Position numbers and translations under genes: made by a program
Shown here: one piece after another, positions 2,294-48,179 of the stretch
Numbering within the stretch: the first letter of the stretch is position 1
How the letters are laid out: every line of letters starts with the position of its first letter
Notes under the pieces: generated by a model
Seen by the model: only the letters and a program-made list of their open reading frames with translations
Told to the model about the DNA's origin: nothing
The model's database searches: none
Source: Brotaphodocola catenula
GTDB lineage: Bacteria; Bacillota; Clostridia; Lachnospirales; Lachnospiraceae
DNA: 64,000 bases
Reading direction: 5' to 3'
Assembly: GCA_020686985.1 (NCBI GenBank)
Contig: JAJEPU010000001.1
Coordinates: forward strand, 62,001-126,000

Positions 2294-4440
2294 TGCAAAA
2301 ACAAAAAAATGTGGGTGCTCAGGTCACAGTATTTCTCAGTCTGGTGATGATGTGTCTGTTCGCTTTCTTCTGCGTTCTATTGGAATCGGCGCGGACAGCT
2401 GGGGCGAGATGGTACCTGCGGACAGCCGTCTCTTCTGCAATGGATTCGGTCTTTGCACAATATCACAGGGAAGTTTGGGATTCCTATCGCCTTTTCTTTG
2501 CAGAGTATGATGTGCCGGAGAAGATGGAGGCAGATTTTGCCTCCTATCTTCAACCGTATCTTGAGGCGAAAAACTGGTATCCGATGGAGCTGGCATCTGT
2601 GACAGCGGAAAATCAGCTTTTTGCAGTGGATGATGATGCAGTCTATTTTGAAAAAGAGATTCTGGACTACATGAAATTTGGCTTCTGGAGAAGTGAATTT
2701 CAGGCAGAAGAGGCGAAAGACATCATCGAGAGAGGAAGGGATGCGGTGGCAGTCAAAGATACTGCCACCCTTTACCGGAAACATGCGAAGCAGGCACTCA
2801 AATTGGAAAAAGTACTTGAAGAGATCAGCGAGAATCTCAACTGTCAGGAAGAGTGGAAAAGAGAAGGTCTTTCCTGTCTGCAAGACTATGATGGATCGGG
2901 ATTTCGAGAGCAGGCAAGGTCGTTGATCAAGGAGCTTGAGAAAATGCCCGGTCTCGTGGAGAAATACCGAAAGCAGGCGGACAAGCTCGCGGAGGATCTT
3001 GCAGAGACTCGAAAAAAAGTTGAAGCAAAATCCGATGAGATGAGTGCAGAGAGCATGGAATTGATGATGGAGGAAATCCGAGAATATGAGGATTATGTCT
3101 CGGAAGACGGAGTTCGTCGGAGGGAAATCGAGGCACTCGAGGAAAAGTCGAGAGAGCAGATCGCGTTCGTGGAAGAAGTCATCGAAGAATCTCTGGAGGT
3201 TGAGCAAGAGATCGATGACTGGGAGAGCGATGATGAGGATGATGACGGACCAGATCTTGAGGAATTATGGAGTCCGGTGGAACGCCATTTTCGGAGACTG
3301 GAAATTCCGAGACTTTCTTTTTCCTATGGCGTAAAAGATAAAGAAAAGGAGAATCTGCTTGAAAAAGTTGAGGAGCTCTTTCGGGATGGAGTGCTCACTC
3401 TGTTGATTCCGGGGGACCGAAAGCTGTCTGAAAAAACGGTAGATTTGAGTGAGGTACCATCCGCAGAGCATGGGGAGAGCAATCGAAACGTCGGAATCGC
3501 GTCGCATTTTATAGTCAACCAATATGATGGCATATTCTTTAAAAATTTTTGCACCGGGCAAAAGAAAAATCAGTCAGATGGAGAGAACAGAGAGATTCAG
3601 GCAGTTCAGATTCAGGCAGTTCAGATTCAGCAGGGTCAGGCATCTGGAATAGAGGGTGTAGAAGTAAAATCAGGCAGAAAGGTTTCTTTAGATAAGGATT
3701 CGCAGGGAGATTCTAAGGACAGTGAGGAAAACAAAGATCCTGATGGGGATACCGATTCAGAGGAGACTATGGGAAATGCAAATGCTCATCCGACCGCTTT
3801 GGATTACGAAGTCGAATATCTGATTGCTGGAAAAGATTCTGATAAAGCAAACCTGATGGGAGCGCTGGAACGTCTTCTTGCGGTGCGAGAGGGACTGAAT
3901 TTGCTTCATATTCTCTCAGATTCTCAGAAGCGTTCTGAGGCGAGAAAGTTGGCGATGGAGATTACCGGACTGGCGAGCGCTTCCCCGCTGATTCTTGTGA
4001 CAACATTTCTTGTCATGTCTGTCTGGGCGCTCGGAGAATCTCTGATGGATATTCGGGGACTATTAGCGGGAAAAAAGACTCCGATCTGGAAGAAAAAAGA
4101 AGACTGGAAATTGGAGCTCTCCGCCCTGCTCTCAATCGGAGAAAATAAAAAGGTTGAAGATGGCGGTGGAAAGCGGGGACTTTCCTACCTGTCATGGCTA
4201 AAAATCTTGTTACTTCTCGGAAATGGCGTAACACAGGAATATCGGATGATGGATTTGATAGAAAAAAATATCCAACTTGGCCAAAGTGAATTTCATATGA
4301 GAGATTGTCTATATCAGAGTGAGATTTGGACGACGGTGGAAGCCAAAAGAGTGTTCTTTTCACTGGGATTTGTGGAGCGTCAGACCGGAGGGGGAGATCC
4401 AGTCTATCAGATGGAACTTCTGACAGAGCGAGCATATTAA
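2293..4440 (+). CDS. DUF5702 domain protein of the Tad cluster
   Basis: Large (715 residues) protein typical of clostridial Tad operons; role unknown, probably a minor pilin or envelope-anchored assembly factor. It opens with GAQVTVFLSLVMMCLFAFFC, a pseudopilin-like helix with a Glu soon after (LLESART), matching DUF5702 N-termini. Residues about 165-330 are highly charged and predicted coiled coil (long Glu/Lys runs, then an acidic patch DDWESDDEDDDG). A Gln-rich direct repeat (IQAVQ twice) and an acidic low-complexity stretch sit at about 430-495. The C-terminal third is more hydrophobic, with one likely membrane segment (ASPLILVTTFLVMSVWAL). Starts inside the stop codon of the pilin gene. 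Confidence 0.72.
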   Translation: MQKQKNVGAQVTVFLSLVMMCLFAFFCVLLESARTAGARWYLRTAVSSAMDSVFAQYHREVWDSYRLFFAEYDVPEKMEADFASYLQPYLEAKNWYPMELASVTAENQLFAVDDDAVYFEKEILDYMKFGFWRSEFQAEEAKDIIERGRDAVAVKDTATLYRKHAKQALKLEKVLEEISENLNCQEEWKREGLSCLQDYDGSGFREQARSLIKELEKMPGLVEKYRKQADKLAEDLAETRKKVEAKSDEMSAESMELMMEEIREYEDYVSEDGVRRREIEALEEKSREQIAFVEEVIEESLEVEQEIDDWESDDEDDDGPDLEELWSPVERHFRRLEIPRLSFSYGVKDKEKENLLEKVEELFRDGVLTLLIPGDRKLSEKTVDLSEVPSAEHGESNRNVGIASHFIVNQYDGIFFKNFCTGQKKNQSDGENREIQAVQIQAVQIQQGQASGIEGVEVKSGRKVSLDKDSQGDSKDSEENKDPDGDTDSEETMGNANAHPTALDYEVEYLIAGKDSDKANLMGALERLLAVREGLNLLHILSDSQKRSEARKLAMEITGLASASPLILVTTFLVMSVWALGESLMDIRGLLAGKKTPIWKKKEDWKLELSALLSIGENKKVEDGGGKRGLSYLSWLKILLLLGNGVTQEYRMMDLIEKNIQLGQSEFHMRDCLYQSEIWTTVEAKRVFFSLGFVERQTGGGDPVYQMELLTERAY

Positions 4441-41588: not shown

Positions 41589-44027
41589 ATGAATTTGAAA
41601 AAGTTGATCTACTGGATGTTTTGCCCAAAAGTGAAAAACATGTTAGGGCGTAGATTGAGGCGAGGGATTTTGCTGACGGTATTTTTTATTCTATTTGTAG
41701 TCCCACCTTTGCCTGTATTTGCGATGCATACAAGAGATGTGCATGATCGAGATCAGGTGAATCAGAAAAGCATTCAGAAAATAATAGTAAGTAATGATAG
41801 AGCAGAAGTGATAAATCAATATGCCACTGGATCAAATACAAAAGGAAAAGATGATCAAAAAAAAGAAGAAATAAGATCGGATGAAGATGATGGCAATGGC
41901 AGTTTAGGAAATGAAGATAATTGTTCGAATGAGATAATAAAAGCATCAGATAGTGACTGGGATGACAAGGATTTGCAGGAAAAAATAGAGGATAAGAAAT
42001 TAGAAAACGAGAATCCTCAGGAAAATTTTGAAGATACAGTAACAAACGATCAAGAATCAGAAAATCTATATTTCAACACATCAGAAAATCAAAAAAATTC
42101 AGAACAGAAAACAGAATCTATAAGTGAAAATCAAATAAGAGATTTAAAGGATTATGTACTCAGCAGAGGAAGTACAAATGAATTGGCAAATTTTAATGTT
42201 TCTCTGTTAGATGCAGGAGAAATAACAATCGAGCCGGATGATAACGGCATCTATCATGTCTATGAGAATGATCTTTATTATCTGAACGTTCATTTTTATG
42301 CACCTATGGGAATTCCGGAAAAAGGTATTTATCAATATATTATGCCAGAAGGAATAAAAGCAATTCAAATTTTATCGCAAAATATTCGAGCAAGTGATGG
42401 AGCAGAAATTGGAATTTTAGAAATATTGGAATCAGGAAAAATTTTGAGTATCAGTATGAAAGAAAATAAAAAGATTCGATTGAATGTGACATTTTCTTGT
42501 ACGGTTGACTTTGAAAGAGAGAATCCTGCAATCAAAATTGAATCGCATAAAGATGGAAGTATTGCGAAAACAGGATATTTTAATGGATTAACGGGACAAT
42601 TTGAGTGGACGATCACAGCCCAGATTCCGGCATATGCTGGTGGAAAGGCGAAGGAGTGGTCTATTAGGGATATTATGTATGACCCACTCTGGGGAGATGC
42701 TTACACATGGAATTTAGAACAAATAAAAAATGTATATATAATTTGTAATGGAAAGAAAGAAGTGCTTTTAGATAAAAATATAGCAATGGAAAATCAAAAA
42801 AATATGGCATATGAATGGATTAGTACGACCGATCCACCTCGTTTATATATTCTTAATAAAACTACTAAAGATACATGTGAAGGATATTGTAAACATTGGT
42901 ATTTTACAGATCTTGTTACAATTATTGTTCATTATGAAAGTTCTTTAGAAGAAAGTAGTGAGTGGTTATCCGAAATTGAAGAGGAATCTAGTTTATATAA
43001 TGATGCTTGGTTAAATAATAAAAGTATTACAACAGAAATAAATCTTTCACCCTTATTCAGTAAATCTCATTCCTCAGATTCATCTAAATACACAATCACA
43101 TTAAATCCAGATTTTTATGATTTAAGTCGGCAAGAGGTTGTTATTGACGACGTTATGACGGGCAACGCTTATTATGTGACAGGCTCGATGACGGTGCTTG
43201 TGACGGACAAAAATGGGGTTACGTTTCCGCTTCAATATGGAACAGATTTTACAGTGGAAAAAGTGGATGGAAGTGCTCAGCACATTCGGATTCATGTTGC
43301 GAATCCGGGGGCGTATTGTTATCAGTTCACCTATAAGACAGTAGCCAAAAGTGATGGCGGGGCGGGTGAAGTGAAAAATGAAGCGCAGGTTACTTTGTGG
43401 GGGCGGGAGTTTTGTGCAGAGGATTACAGTTTTAGCTCTAGTGCAGAGGAATATTTTGTGCGAATGAAAAAGAGTGAGGAAGATAGTGGTAGGGCGGTCC
43501 CTGGTGCTCTTTATGGACTTTATTCGTCTACGGGAGAGTTGATGGTGCAAGGAGTTACGGATGCGCTGGGAGAGTGTCTGTTTCGTGGAGATCCGGTGAA
43601 CGGTTTTCTCTTGGATCGAGATTGTCTGTATTATCTGCAAGAGATAGAAGCTCCGGATGGGTATGAAAAAAATGAAACGAGAACATGGTTCTATTTTGCA
43701 GAATCGGATTATGAACAGTCGATTCGTCCGCTGTTGGAAGAGGCACGTTTTACAGGAGTCTATGGTGCAGAGGATGAAGAGGCGATAGAGATTGAAGAGG
43801 GACAGGATGAAAGTCTTTCGAGTTGGATTCTGGTGACGGACCGGAGAATAAAGACATATACACTTCCTCAGACCGGCGGAGTCGGGACGGATGAATATAT
43901 AACAGTTGCTTTTCTGATATTTGCAGGAATGGGAAGTGTATTTGATATTGTTTTCAGTGTTTCGGAACCAATCGAACAGGTGAAGGAGACTGGAAAAAAG
44001 AAGAAAGTAGAGGAGGATCAAAGATGA
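41589..44027 (+). CDS. LPXTG surface adhesin / pilus tip-type protein
   Basis: 812-residue cell-wall-anchored protein, first of the pilus operon and likely the tip or ancillary pilin. A signal peptide with a long basic N-region (RRLRRGILLTVFFILFVVP, about 22-40) is followed by a highly acidic Asn/Glu/Lys-rich stretch (about 60-200), an unrecognised beta-rich middle, a SpaA/Cna-B-type domain near 640-725 (VPGALYGLYSSTGELMV; YYLQEIEAPDGYEK holds the E-box Glu), and sorting signal LPQTGG (Leu759) with membrane helix and charged tail. The first 1.5 kb is clearly more AT-rich than the last third. AAAAGGAG precedes ATG 41589. Its stop overlaps the next start (ATGA). Confidence 0.83.
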   Translation: MNLKKLIYWMFCPKVKNMLGRRLRRGILLTVFFILFVVPPLPVFAMHTRDVHDRDQVNQKSIQKIIVSNDRAEVINQYATGSNTKGKDDQKKEEIRSDEDDGNGSLGNEDNCSNEIIKASDSDWDDKDLQEKIEDKKLENENPQENFEDTVTNDQESENLYFNTSENQKNSEQKTESISENQIRDLKDYVLSRGSTNELANFNVSLLDAGEITIEPDDNGIYHVYENDLYYLNVHFYAPMGIPEKGIYQYIMPEGIKAIQILSQNIRASDGAEIGILEILESGKILSISMKENKKIRLNVTFSCTVDFERENPAIKIESHKDGSIAKTGYFNGLTGQFEWTITAQIPAYAGGKAKEWSIRDIMYDPLWGDAYTWNLEQIKNVYIICNGKKEVLLDKNIAMENQKNMAYEWISTTDPPRLYILNKTTKDTCEGYCKHWYFTDLVTIIVHYESSLEESSEWLSEIEEESSLYNDAWLNNKSITTEINLSPLFSKSHSSDSSKYTITLNPDFYDLSRQEVVIDDVMTGNAYYVTGSMTVLVTDKNGVTFPLQYGTDFTVEKVDGSAQHIRIHVANPGAYCYQFTYKTVAKSDGGAGEVKNEAQVTLWGREFCAEDYSFSSSAEEYFVRMKKSEEDSGRAVPGALYGLYSSTGELMVQGVTDALGECLFRGDPVNGFLLDRDCLYYLQEIEAPDGYEKNETRTWFYFAESDYEQSIRPLLEEARFTGVYGAEDEEAIEIEEGQDESLSSWILVTDRRIKTYTLPQTGGVGTDEYITVAFLIFAGMGSVFDIVFSVSEPIEQVKETGKKKKVEEDQR

Positions 44028-45562
44028 ACCAAAACGTTAGGGAGAGTTCTGTGTGGTACAAGTGGGGATGTAGGATGATGGCATGGATTTCAATGGTGAT
44101 TTGTATTGGAATCATGATGATGGGAATCACGGCGTTGGCGGGAACGATGCATACGATTACTGCGCCGGACAATGGACATGAGTATGAAGTCTATCAGATT
44201 TTCACGGGCGATGAGACCGAAGGGATTTTATCGAATGTAAAGTGGGGAGAAAATGGAAGTGGAGAGTGTGGAGCCGGAGTTCCGGATTCTATTTTGAAGG
44301 AGATTGAGGAGGCAAGTGGAACAGATGCAGAGAAACTCGCGGTGATTAAAAAGTATGCCAGAATCAAGAAAGAAGAGGCATTTAAGATGATCTCGGAAGA
44401 AAGGGTTTTAAGTGTTCCGTCTGGATATTATCTGATGAAGGATAAGGATGGTTCTCAGGCGGGAAAGAATGATGCGTATACAACTTGGCTCGTGAAGGTT
44501 GTGGGTGATGTGAAGATGGCTCCGAAAGCGGACAAGCCTTCTTCAGAAAAGAAAGTGAAGGATCGAAATGACACGCTGGGAGAAGAATCTGGATGGCAGG
44601 ATTCCGCAGATTATGATGTGGAAGATCTGGTTCCGTTTCAGCTGACCGGAAAAGTAGCGTCAAATTATGATTCTTATTTGAGCTATCGTTTTGTTTTTCA
44701 TGATCAGCAGTCAGAGGGGCTTGATTTTCAGGTGGATACAGTGCGGGTGTTTGTGGACGAAAAGGAGATTACACAGGGATTTTCTGTGCAGACGTCGACA
44801 GAGGATGGGGATGCGTTTGAGGTAGTGTTTGAAAACATGAAGACAATCCCGGAAGTAAAAGCGGGAAGCACGGTGACGGTTGAATATAAATCACGGTTGA
44901 CGGATCAGGCAGTTTTAGGAGCAGAGGGAAATCCCAATACGATGTATCTGGAATACTCAAACAATCCGAATCAGGGACAGGAGGGAGAGACTGGAAAGAC
45001 ACCGGAGGATACGGTAATTGTTTTTACCTACAAGATTGTTGTAAAGAAGTTGGATGAGACAGGAAAAGCGTTGGAAGGTGCGGAATTTATTCTGGAAAAA
45101 CAGTTGCCAGATCGTGATGAGGGAGATGAAAACTGGCAGTCATTTGTGGCGGAAAAGAATACAACGGGAACCGTTTTTACATTTCGGGGATTAGATGACG
45201 GTGCATATCGATTGACAGAGTCGATCACACCGGCAGGATACAATACGGTTCCGGCTCTCTATTTTACGATTACAGCAGATCACCAGATTCTGTCAGATTC
45301 GCCGATTTTGGAAAATTTGAATGGAGAGACGGCGACAGGAGAGATCACATTTGTCATTGACAAGGAGGAAGGATTTCTCGAGACAACGGTTGTCAACAAA
45401 CATGGAGTGTCACTTCCGGAGACAGGTGGACGCGGAACTTTTCTGTTTTATGCAGTTGGTGGTGTTTTGATCTTTGCATCGATGGGAGCAGGAATGATGT
45501 ATCTGATGAAAAATTCGTCGAGAGGAGGGGAGGATGACGAGCATAAAGAGACGATGGATTAG
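44024..45562 (+). CDS. Major pilin backbone subunit (SpaA-type, LPETG)
   Basis: 512 residues. Signal peptide/anchor at about 16-40, then an N-terminal domain starting HTITAPDNGHEYEVYQIFTG, a pilin-type motif region with the candidate linking Lys in VKMAPKADKPSSEKKVKD, two Cna-B/SpaA isopeptide domains (the second with KKLDETGKALEGAEFILEKQ and E-box YRLTESITPAGYN), and a sorting signal LPETGG (Leu464) with membrane helix. This is the standard backbone-pilin layout; the adjacent class C sortase would polymerise it. GGAGG lies seven bases before the ATG. Confidence 0.9.
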   Translation: MNQNVRESSVWYKWGCRMMAWISMVICIGIMMMGITALAGTMHTITAPDNGHEYEVYQIFTGDETEGILSNVKWGENGSGECGAGVPDSILKEIEEASGTDAEKLAVIKKYARIKKEEAFKMISEERVLSVPSGYYLMKDKDGSQAGKNDAYTTWLVKVVGDVKMAPKADKPSSEKKVKDRNDTLGEESGWQDSADYDVEDLVPFQLTGKVASNYDSYLSYRFVFHDQQSEGLDFQVDTVRVFVDEKEITQGFSVQTSTEDGDAFEVVFENMKTIPEVKAGSTVTVEYKSRLTDQAVLGAEGNPNTMYLEYSNNPNQGQEGETGKTPEDTVIVFTYKIVVKKLDETGKALEGAEFILEKQLPDRDEGDENWQSFVAEKNTTGTVFTFRGLDDGAYRLTESITPAGYNTVPALYFTITADHQILSDSPILENLNGETATGEITFVIDKEEGFLETTVVNKHGVSLPETGGRGTFLFYAVGGVLIFASMGAGMMYLMKNSSRGGEDDEHKETMD

Positions 45563-46256
45563 AAGATTTCTGAAGTTTGTGCCTGTGATGCTGTTTGTTG
45601 TTGGAGTGTCGCTGATGCTTTATCCATATGTCAGCGATTGTTGGAATCGGTGGCATCAGTCGCGTGCGATTGCGGGATATGCAGATGCTGTTTCGCAGGA
45701 AAAGCGAGAAGATCTTGAGAACATGTGGAAGCAGGCAAGGATTTACAATATGGAGTTAAAGAGAAAGAAGAATCGTTATTATCTGAGTGAGGAGGATCAG
45801 ATTCGCTATCACCAGCTCCTAAATCTGACTGGAAATGGAATCATGGGCTATATTGAGATCCCCTCGATTCGGTGTTCGCTTCCGATTTATCATGGGACGG
45901 ATGAGTCGGTTCTTCAGGTTGCGACGGGTCATATCGAGGGAAGTTCTCTTCCTGTGGGAGGAGCCGGGAGTCACTGTGTGATTTCCGGTCACAGGGGGCT
46001 TCCGTCGGCAAGACTGTTTTCAGGTCTTGATCAGCTAAAAACCGGCGATTTTTTTAATCTGCGGGTGCTCAATCGGACGTTGCAGTATCAGATCGATGAG
46101 ATTAATATCGTGCTTCCGGATGACATTGGAAAATTGGAGATTGACCCCGAAAAGGATTTCTGCACGCTTGTTACCTGTACCCCTTATGGGGTGAATTCTC
46201 ATCGGCTTCTGGTTCGGGGAAGTCGTGTGGAAAAACAAAACGGAGATAGAGATTAA
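45534..46256 (+). CDS. srtC: Class C sortase (pilus polymerase)
   Basis: Membrane transpeptidase that links pilins through their LPXTG motif. 240 residues: N-terminal anchor (about 13-31), a helical region with YADAVSQ, beta-barrel domain IPSIRCSLPIYHGTDESVL, catalytic His in CVISGHRGLPSARLF, catalytic Cys in CTLVTCTPYGVNSHRLLVRG and the Arg in the same stretch. The TPYGVNxHRLLVRG ending is diagnostic of class C. Its start lies inside the pilin gene (29-base overlap) with GGAGG five bases upstream. The class C lid motif (DP-type) is not obvious. Confidence 0.92.
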   Translation: MTSIKRRWIRRFLKFVPVMLFVVGVSLMLYPYVSDCWNRWHQSRAIAGYADAVSQEKREDLENMWKQARIYNMELKRKKNRYYLSEEDQIRYHQLLNLTGNGIMGYIEIPSIRCSLPIYHGTDESVLQVATGHIEGSSLPVGGAGSHCVISGHRGLPSARLFSGLDQLKTGDFFNLRVLNRTLQYQIDEINIVLPDDIGKLEIDPEKDFCTLVTCTPYGVNSHRLLVRGSRVEKQNGDRD

Positions 46257-46349: not shown

Positions 46350-48179
46350 ATGCGAAGGATCATGACACTTATCGCAGGTGGAGTGTGCGTAGGGATTTTG
46401 TGTGTGATGATATTTTTTCATATGCAGGGAATTCAGGTGTTGGCGATGACGGAGAATCTTTCAGAAAGTCCCATAGAGGGAAAGAAGATCGGATCTGTGA
46501 TCTTGGAATATGGACGGGAAAAGCCGATTCAGCATGCAGGTTTTTCAATCTTTCAGGTGGCAGAGAAAATTCAGGTATCAGAGAAAATTCAGGTGGCGGA
46601 GAAAACGGAAAATGGAAGTTACCGGAAAACGGGAGACTTTGAAACGTGTCCGGTTCAGATTGAACTTGAGGATGTTTCGCGGTGGAGGGAGACCGCGGAA
46701 ACATTGGAGATTTATGTGCTGAGGGATCGGTTGACTCCGCTGAGAAAAGGGGAGACAGATCTGAATGGGCGATTGAAATTTGAAAATCTGGGAGCAGGAG
46801 TTTATCTGATTGTTGGAGAGAAAAAGATAGAGGGGAAAAAGACCTATATTCCGGAGCCGATTTTACTTGTCCTGGCAAGAGATGGCAAATTACCGGAAAA
46901 TAAGGCATCGGAGAAGGTTGCATCAGGAAACGAAAAGTCGGAGAACGGAAAATCAGAGAATATGGATGAAGGAGGAGCTTATCAGGTGACGGTGCATCCG
47001 AAGTACCGGGAAGAAGAGAAAGCGCGGTCTTCAAATCGGGATCATGATGATGCTTCGGAAACCATTCGAGTAAGGGCAATGAAAGTCTGGGAGGACGAGA
47101 AGACAAGGGCTTACCCGGAAATCAGGCAACAGGATATTCAGGCGCATCCGACACAGGTAACGGTACAGCTTTTGAGGGATGGTGTATTCATGGAAAATGC
47201 CGTGTTGTCGGAGGACAATCAATGGAGTTATATGTGGGAAAATCTGGATGCAGACAGGGTTTGGAAGGTGGCAGAGGAAGTTCCGGAAGGATATGTCGTC
47301 TCGATTCGTCAGGAGGGAGAGACATTTCTGCTGACAAATCGGAAGGAGAATAGATATTTGCCTGGGGAGTCTGAAACTTCGGTGGAGGAACCAGATCTGC
47401 CGGATGCCGAAAAACTTCCGCAAACAGGAAGCTCGTGGTATCTGGTCTTGATTTTGGGAGCGATCGGAATTTTACTTGTGAGATGTTGTGGAAAGATTGA
47501 AAAAAGAAGAAAGGCGGATGACGGAAAAAAAGAGAGAAAAAGAGAGAAAACAGAAGAGAAGACGGGGGAGAAAAAATGGCGAAGCATTTGGGTGTGGATG
47601 CTAAGAATTTTTGGGACATGCTGTATGATTTTGGCTGGGATTTTTGCGGGAAAGAATAGTTCTGATGAGATTCAAGCGTATAATCATGTCAAGGAGAGTC
47701 AACGAAAACTGGGGGTGGAAGAACAAGCAAAGAAAAAGCAGGAACAACCACTCTATCTGCTTGACCCGGCTCGGGTGATGCCGGAGAAAGTGGTGGATGG
47801 GAAAGCCTATATTGGGGTATTGGAGATTCCTTCTCTTGGGCGTGAACTTCCCGTGATGAGTGAGTGGACGGATGAGAGACTAAAGCAGGCTCCGTGCCGA
47901 TATGCGGGTTCGGCGTATCTGCAAAATCTGGTGATTGCCGGTCATAATTATCGCGCGCATTTTTCTGGAATCGGAAATCTGAAAAAAGGAGATTCGGTGA
48001 TTTTTACAGATATGGACGGAAATCGATTTTTCTATGAGGTGACAGAAATTGAAATTTTAAATGCAGAAGAGACGGAGAGAATGACAGAGAGCTGGTGGGC
48101 GTTGACTCTGTTTACCTGTACTGTCGGAGGTGGACGGCGCATTGCCGTGCGCTGTGACGCGTTGGTGCAGGATGAGTAG
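46350..48179 (+). CDS. Fusion of an LPXTG surface protein with a sortase
   Basis: 609 residues in one uninterrupted frame. Part 1 (1-400): signal/anchor helix (about 5-32), a SpaA-like region (RLKFENLGAGVYLIVGEKK), a Cna-B-type domain (IRVRAMKVWEDEKTR...VTVQLLRDG), sorting signal LPQTG (Leu356-Gly360), membrane helix and a Lys/Arg/Glu tail. Part 2 (about 413-609): a second membrane helix and a sortase domain with VLEIPSLGRELPVMSEW, His532 in VIAGHNYRAHF, Cys590 in LFTCTVGG and Arg596/597. The sortase looks like class D or B-type, not class C. An internal in-frame ATG at 47598 could give free sortase, but no good ribosome binding site precedes it. GGGGAG precedes ATG 46350. It ends the pilus operon. 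Confidence 0.85.
   Translation: MRRIMTLIAGGVCVGILCVMIFFHMQGIQVLAMTENLSESPIEGKKIGSVILEYGREKPIQHAGFSIFQVAEKIQVSEKIQVAEKTENGSYRKTGDFETCPVQIELEDVSRWRETAETLEIYVLRDRLTPLRKGETDLNGRLKFENLGAGVYLIVGEKKIEGKKTYIPEPILLVLARDGKLPENKASEKVASGNEKSENGKSENMDEGGAYQVTVHPKYREEEKARSSNRDHDDASETIRVRAMKVWEDEKTRAYPEIRQQDIQAHPTQVTVQLLRDGVFMENAVLSEDNQWSYMWENLDADRVWKVAEEVPEGYVVSIRQEGETFLLTNRKENRYLPGESETSVEEPDLPDAEKLPQTGSSWYLVLILGAIGILLVRCCGKIEKRRKADDGKKERKREKTEEKTGEKKWRSIWVWMLRIFGTCCMILAGIFAGKNSSDEIQAYNHVKESQRKLGVEEQAKKKQEQPLYLLDPARVMPEKVVDGKAYIGVLEIPSLGRELPVMSEWTDERLKQAPCRYAGSAYLQNLVIAGHNYRAHFSGIGNLKKGDSVIFTDMDGNRFFYEVTEIEILNAEETERMTESWWALTLFTCTVGGGRRIAVRCDALVQDE

Follow-up and report, generated by a model that had tools for sequence, protein, structure and literature searches.

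We found that one open reading frame of the gut bacterium Brotaphodocola catenula probably encodes an in-frame fusion of a base pilin with its anchoring sortase, in which the sortase half would cut the LPQTG motif of the pilin half, in cis or in trans, and anchor the pilus. The frame occupies positions 46350..48179 (+) of the window, the whole 64,000-nucleotide stretch analysed here, and runs through 609 codons (609 aa). A first-pass annotation, made from this DNA alone, had described an uninterrupted 609-codon frame with a signal helix, a Cna-B-type domain, LPQTG at residues 356-360 and a sortase domain, and this anatomy was borne out by the open frame, the position of the motif and matches to the Pfam families Cna_B and Sortase. 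To our knowledge, known systems keep a sortase and its substrate on separate chains.

From the N-terminus, the protein is ordered as signal helix, pilin domains including Cna_B, LPQTG, first transmembrane segment (TM1), basic loop, second transmembrane segment (TM2) and sortase, and all coordinates below are on the forward strand. The signal helix (residues 1-36; 46350..46457) is a hydrophobic segment that AlphaFold2 modelled as a helix over residues 2-37. The first pilin domain (residues 48-175; 46491..46874) is beta-rich in the same model, with a SpaA match below the cut-off, and the Cna_B domain (residues 244-330; 47079..47339) matched PF05738 with 39 bits against a cut-off of 22.3. Between the two lies an HPK motif, noted by eye, with a candidate lysine for accepting the shaft pilin. 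The LPQTG sorting motif (47415..47429), which lacks the second glycine found in the other pilins, is followed by TM1 (residues 365-381; 47442..47492), recognised by hydropathy and covered by an AlphaFold2 helix at residues 363-393. Next comes the fusion junction, a basic loop of 35 residues with a net charge of +7 (47493..47597) that hydropathy and charge predict to be cytoplasmic, and then TM2 (residues 417-433; 47598..47648), a hydrophobic segment at the position of the N-terminal anchor of separate sortases, several of whose alignments start at residues 417-422. The sortase catalytic domain (residues 491-602; 47820..48155) belongs to the sortase superfamily, matching PF04203 with 68.2 bits against a cut-off of 26.6. 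His532, Cys590, Arg596 and Arg597 all lie where the first-pass annotation had placed them; the first two and Arg597 are invariant across four aligned fused proteins, but Arg596 is not.

The features of an LPXTG anchor are present, namely a signal helix (called as a signal peptide from hydropathy and the model only), the motif, a transmembrane segment and basic residues after it. The sorting signal is not C-terminal; 249 residues, including the second transmembrane segment and the sortase, follow LPQTG. The anchor model TIGR01167 (cut-off 15.9) scored 12.8 bits in the protein scan and 17.9 bits in the genome scan, scores that weigh little because this short model also rose above threshold for 9 of 14 control genomes.

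The AlphaFold2 model, built from 57 aligned sequences, had an overall mean pLDDT of 72.9 and a pTM of 0.46, so the relative placement of the two halves is not fixed by it. Helices spanned both membrane segments, the sortase domain was confident, and the first pilin domain had high pLDDT over most of its length with a dip at residues 74-85; the Cna_B region was modelled poorly with low confidence, and confidence was also low around LPQTG (pLDDT under 50 at residues 351-359). The leading Foldseek matches were class C, A and E sortases. When searched by sequence against solved structures, the pilin part matched the collagen adhesin 1d2p and the enzyme part matched the Bacillus anthracis sortase 2kw8. 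Among the NCBIfam models, the sortase reached the general model TIGR01076 (43.6 bits against 39.35) and missed every class-specific cut-off for classes C, D, E and GN: class D gave 41.6 bits (cut-off 165), SrtD 52.2 (140), class C 43.1 (160), class E 34.1 (160) and class GN 36.5 (158.25).

The fusion is the fourth gene of a run. It follows a large ancillary (tip-type) pilin ending in LPQTGG (41589..44027, +; Pfam SpaA above cut-off), a backbone pilin with LPETGG (44024..45562, +; PF16569 and TIGR04226 above cut-off) and a class C sortase, the pilus polymerase (45534..46256, +). The adjacent class C enzyme had been proposed in the first-pass annotation, and its assignment was confirmed by NF033745 (class_C_sortase) at 264.8 bits against a cut-off of 160. 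The pilin half has the marks of a base pilin, being a Cna_B pilin within the operon whose signal is distinct from that of the other pilins. Four Sortase-family matches were detected in the genome. Besides the fusion and its class C neighbour there are two on contig C27, which scored 175.5 and 116.4 bits against the class B cut-off of 153.75, so that one passes and one misses. Since these other sortases are one class C and two class B-like enzymes, the genome showed no class A-type anchoring sortase on a chain of its own; at 98.82% completeness and with 112 contigs, the assembly may lack a further sortase. The two class B-type enzymes on contig C27 belong to a second surface locus (L003, L004), which also encodes an LPKTG protein and a pilin-like protein in which no LPXTG was seen by eye.

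To place the fusion among its relatives, the window protein was searched at E values up to 1e-5, which gave matches in 97 of 397 family genomes (among the matches listed) and in 12 of 24 genus genomes, its own included. A search with four fused proteins at E values up to 1e-10 gave matches in 115 of 392 order genomes and 95 of 391 class genomes (again among the matches listed). These genome sets overlap, and at most three candidates per genome were scored for the family, order and class. In the collected loci, 319 ORFs, a number that counts duplicates and class C sortases, matched a sortase profile made from the four fused proteins, and 141 distinct sortase domains with at least 100 bits and at least 100 residues were retained. 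These comprised 106 split cases, 7 fused cases, 25 without a recognised partner and 3 at a contig edge, a split case being one in which an LPxTG-type ORF ends up to 600 nt upstream of the sortase. At least 7 of the 28 partnerless or edge domains adjoin a pilin whose motif the pattern missed (LIQTG-like or APQTG), and these were not moved to the split count. The base pilins of L045, L050, L051, L091, L155 and L166 carry a signal without proline (LIQTG, LIHTG or LIQSG) followed by QL-x-WP.

The usual layout in the relatives is a base pilin gene that overlaps or adjoins a separate sortase gene. The two genes overlapped in 73 of the 106 split pairs, lay 0-30 nt apart in 14 and were further apart in 19; the overlap is overstated, because the upstream-most ATG, GTG or TTG was taken as the sortase start. 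Only 18 of the 106 pairs share a reading frame. In the window's own genus, 24 further domains (a count that leaves out three short contig-end or partial pieces) included 21 split cases, 2 without a recognised partner, 1 at a contig edge and no second fusion. A scan of contigs across named genomes with the single window protein found no relative, and a scan with the four-protein alignment, in which the best 80 of 573 relatives were taken with one domain each, gave 72 split cases, 2 fused ones, among which G227 reappeared, and 6 others; 10 of these best 80 were identical to domains among the 141. The fused fractions are not prevalences, because sequences entered the sample by their resemblance to the fusion and the matches listed were retrieved only in part. 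The first-pass annotation had suggested looking for the fusion in related genomes; the outcome is mixed, with no second fusion in the genus but fused proteins in five other lineages, so two separate genes are not universal.

Several long frames were considered as further fusions and rejected. The frames of 549-629 aa at L035 (G294), L036 (G058), L037 (G368) and L095 (G397) have a stop between a pilin and a sortase in the same frame; in G058 and G368 a sortase start directly follows that stop. The sortase ORFs of L068-L070 (412-433 codons) are not LPXTG fusions; all three extend C-terminally past the catalytic domain, which makes them another type of extended sortase. In G098 the sortase is spread over two frames and was left as pieces outside the 141.

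The pilins of these loci carry two kinds of sorting signal. Among the 106 base pilins, only 1 has a second glycine after the motif and 95 have a tryptophan within the five residues past it; the 79 other LPxTG-type ORFs from these loci show the reverse, with a second glycine in 78 and such a tryptophan in none. In most base pilins the motif is LPQTG and a Trp-rich stretch comes after it (LPQTG-x-LWWP, with the consensus QLWWPVP), whereas the other pilins read LPxTGG; the signal of the window protein, LPQTGSSWYL, has drifted away from LWWP. Because the motifs of base and other pilins segregate, the small sortase looks dedicated to the base pilin, as judged from gene order and motif statistics. 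The division fits two enzymes with two substrates, in which the class C sortase would serve LPxTGG and the base-pilin sortase LPQTG-x-LWWP. The earlier idea of a tethered wall-anchoring enzyme agrees with this picture, as in relatives this sortase mostly has a gene of its own, next to a base pilin that bears a distinct type of signal.

Fused proteins were found in five other lineages. G227 (L075) encodes one of 527 aa with LPQTG and a tight hairpin, G031 (L041) one of 443 aa with LPQTG, and G012 (L040) one of 437 aa with FPQTG, in a genome that also has two split pairs. Three species of one genus (L169-L171) have fused proteins of 1019-1034 aa with LPEAG, which lacks the threonine, and in the one scanned with Pfam (L170) no Cna_B was found. 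An Oscillospiraceae genome (L221) has a frame of 556 codons from stop to stop with LPQTG, its start not being settled. All eight fused proteins run from an N-terminal helix and a surface part through the motif, TM1, the loop and TM2 to the sortase, and in each of them the two parts meet between the membrane segments, on the side predicted to be cytoplasmic. Since both ends of the junction are predicted to be cytoplasmic, the halves outside would be undisturbed by the fusion. At 35 residues, the loop of the window protein is longer than those of the other fused proteins (7-17 residues). Proteins with LPQTG or FPQTG carry a net +2 to +7 in the loop and those with LPEAG 0 to +1, so that the positive-inside argument is weak for the latter. 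Fused proteins of the same layout in other genera and in another family argue that the fusion is beyond chance. At L221:1630-4758, the Oscillospiraceae backbone pilin is apparently split by an ORF (2845-4174), which we take to resemble an IscB-type RNA-guided nuclease.

The fusion likely arose repeatedly, judging from trees of the sortase domains. The fewest changes between fused and split labels were 5 (141 rows), 5 (77 rows) and 6 (78 rows), of which well-supported branches forced 2, 3 and 3, respectively; the 77-row tree used columns near the junction. The fused rows formed one group in none of 200 bootstrap trees in the 77-row and 78-row sets, in which the bootstraps had not settled. Holding them as one clade was not rejected in the quick 141-row tree (p-AU 0.589, the held tree scoring better) or in the careful 78-row tree (p-AU 0.083). 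A single origin for all fusions is thus not supported by the trees, although the one-clade constraint passes the AU test. In addition, the different surface part of L169-L171 speaks for more than one fusion event.

In the mechanism that we propose, polymerisation of the LPxTGG pilins would fall to the neighbouring class C sortase, and the base pilin would join the pilus last, ending the polymer. The membrane hairpin would hold the sortase half beside the base pilin, and the sortase half would cut LPQTG between Thr and Gly and join the pilus to the peptidoglycan precursor, remaining after the cut as a two-helix membrane enzyme. We infer from the sequence both the action of the sortase on LPQTG and the wall anchoring. 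Self-cleavage of the window protein is plausible by analogy, since artificial sortase-target fusions cleave themselves (PMC2901362), and the chemistry is therefore possible. Cleavage in trans between copies fits the sequence equally well as cleavage in cis. A closely related account, which overlaps with ours and to which we give a substantial but minority chance, is that the fusion is real and the sortase acts mainly in trans, copies cutting each other while the tether only sets how much enzyme there is and keeps it where pili are assembled. Action in trans would be implied by the common state, in which sortase and pilin have separate genes, and the model does not fix how LPQTG lies with respect to the active site, residues 351-359 being poorly resolved; against this, the high local concentration in a tethered pair favours cleavage in cis or between neighbours.

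Next to be weighed is a base-calling or assembly error, with two overlapping genes in the living genome as in the genus mates. We regard such an error as unlikely, while giving it real weight. The junction holds GGGGGAG and an out-of-frame ATG (47576) at 47564..47578 (+), where a separate sortase would start, and this stretch is a possible remnant of a former sortase start. Across the four genes, 7 of the 126 ATGs that lie out of frame carry a 5-base ribosome site of this sort, two of the seven being the true starts of the next genes, and the in-frame start candidates at 47592 and 47598 have no 5-base site upstream. Near the junctions of six other fused proteins (L075, L041, L040, L169-L171) no 5-base site was found, though L075, L169 and L171 have weaker matches of 4 bases. 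With no other fusion in the genus and this out-of-frame site and ATG, the window fusion looks young, unless it reflects a base-calling error; a young fusion and an error would look alike, and the sequence pattern fits both. The split state of the genus mates (21 of 24 domains), the overlap of most split pairs together with their mostly different frames, and the long loop, as if both gene ends had been kept, also speak for an error. Against it stand an intact frame with no other damage and the presence of this architecture in five other lineages, one of which retains it across three species.

We consider it distinctly improbable that cleavage of the sorting signal has been lost and that the fusion serves as a membrane-anchored pilus root whose sortase acts on other pilins. 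The LPEAG motif of L169-L171 and the drift of the window signal downstream of its motif are in keeping with such a loss, but LPQTG (FPQTG in L040) and TM1 are kept in the window protein, L075, L041, L040 and L221, and a class C enzyme is already there for the LPxTGG pilins. A slippage switch in the basic loop that toggles between fused and unfused products is very improbable: the loop DNA has A and G runs and the out-of-frame start, and control of pilus expression by replication slippage is reported for Bifidobacterium breve (PMC9187656), but a strong start of this kind is absent from the six other fused proteins checked.

The preferred reading, a base pilin fused in frame to its anchoring sortase, may extend beyond the window. 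It is conceivable, at a little under even chances, that base pilins have repeatedly absorbed their dedicated anchoring sortase, giving a self-anchoring, self-cutting pilus root that leaves a two-helix sortase behind. The pairing of sortases with substrates is usually hard to tell from sequence, and a natural fusion names the enzyme-substrate pair outright. Together with the motif split, the fusion makes sortase-substrate assignment in Clostridia pili directly testable, and it provides a naturally occurring candidate for a membrane sortase that processes itself. What is new is the joining, as the enzymes and substrates are already known. No natural sortase-substrate fusion was described in the titles and abstract openings that made up the literature searched, or in the part of the literature searched on pili of the same bacterial group. 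PMC10924467 was considered as a precedent and rejected, as the part consulted concerns Tat-dependent sortase substrates and not a fusion.

The nearest known counterparts are the split pairs of base pilin and dedicated sortase in Lachnospiraceae and other Clostridia, which have a homologous sortase, an LPQTG base pilin and the same gene order, but as two genes, mostly overlapping or close, instead of one. Class C and class D sortases share the Pfam domain of the window enzyme, and the class D (SrtD) and class C models gave the best class-type NCBIfam scores, although the enzyme stays below their class-specific cut-offs. In group B Streptococcus (GBS) pilus 2a, two-step assembly with a minor pilin as the wall anchor is established: class C enzymes polymerise the pilus and SrtA acts only on the minor pilin (PMC3186789). 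The likeness lies in the use of class C sortases for the shaft and another sortase for the LPXTG of the terminal pilin (AP2) (PMC3186789), and the difference is that SrtA is there a general housekeeping enzyme on a separate chain, whereas here the enzyme is encoded beside the base pilin and, in the window, within its chain. The engineered BISOP fusions likewise hold sortase and target in one chain that is cut at the expected site, but they are artificial, carry SrtA at the N-terminus of the target and serve protein purification (PMC2901362). If the mechanism holds, the self-anchoring root would be the natural counterpart of such an engineered self-cleaving sortase fusion.
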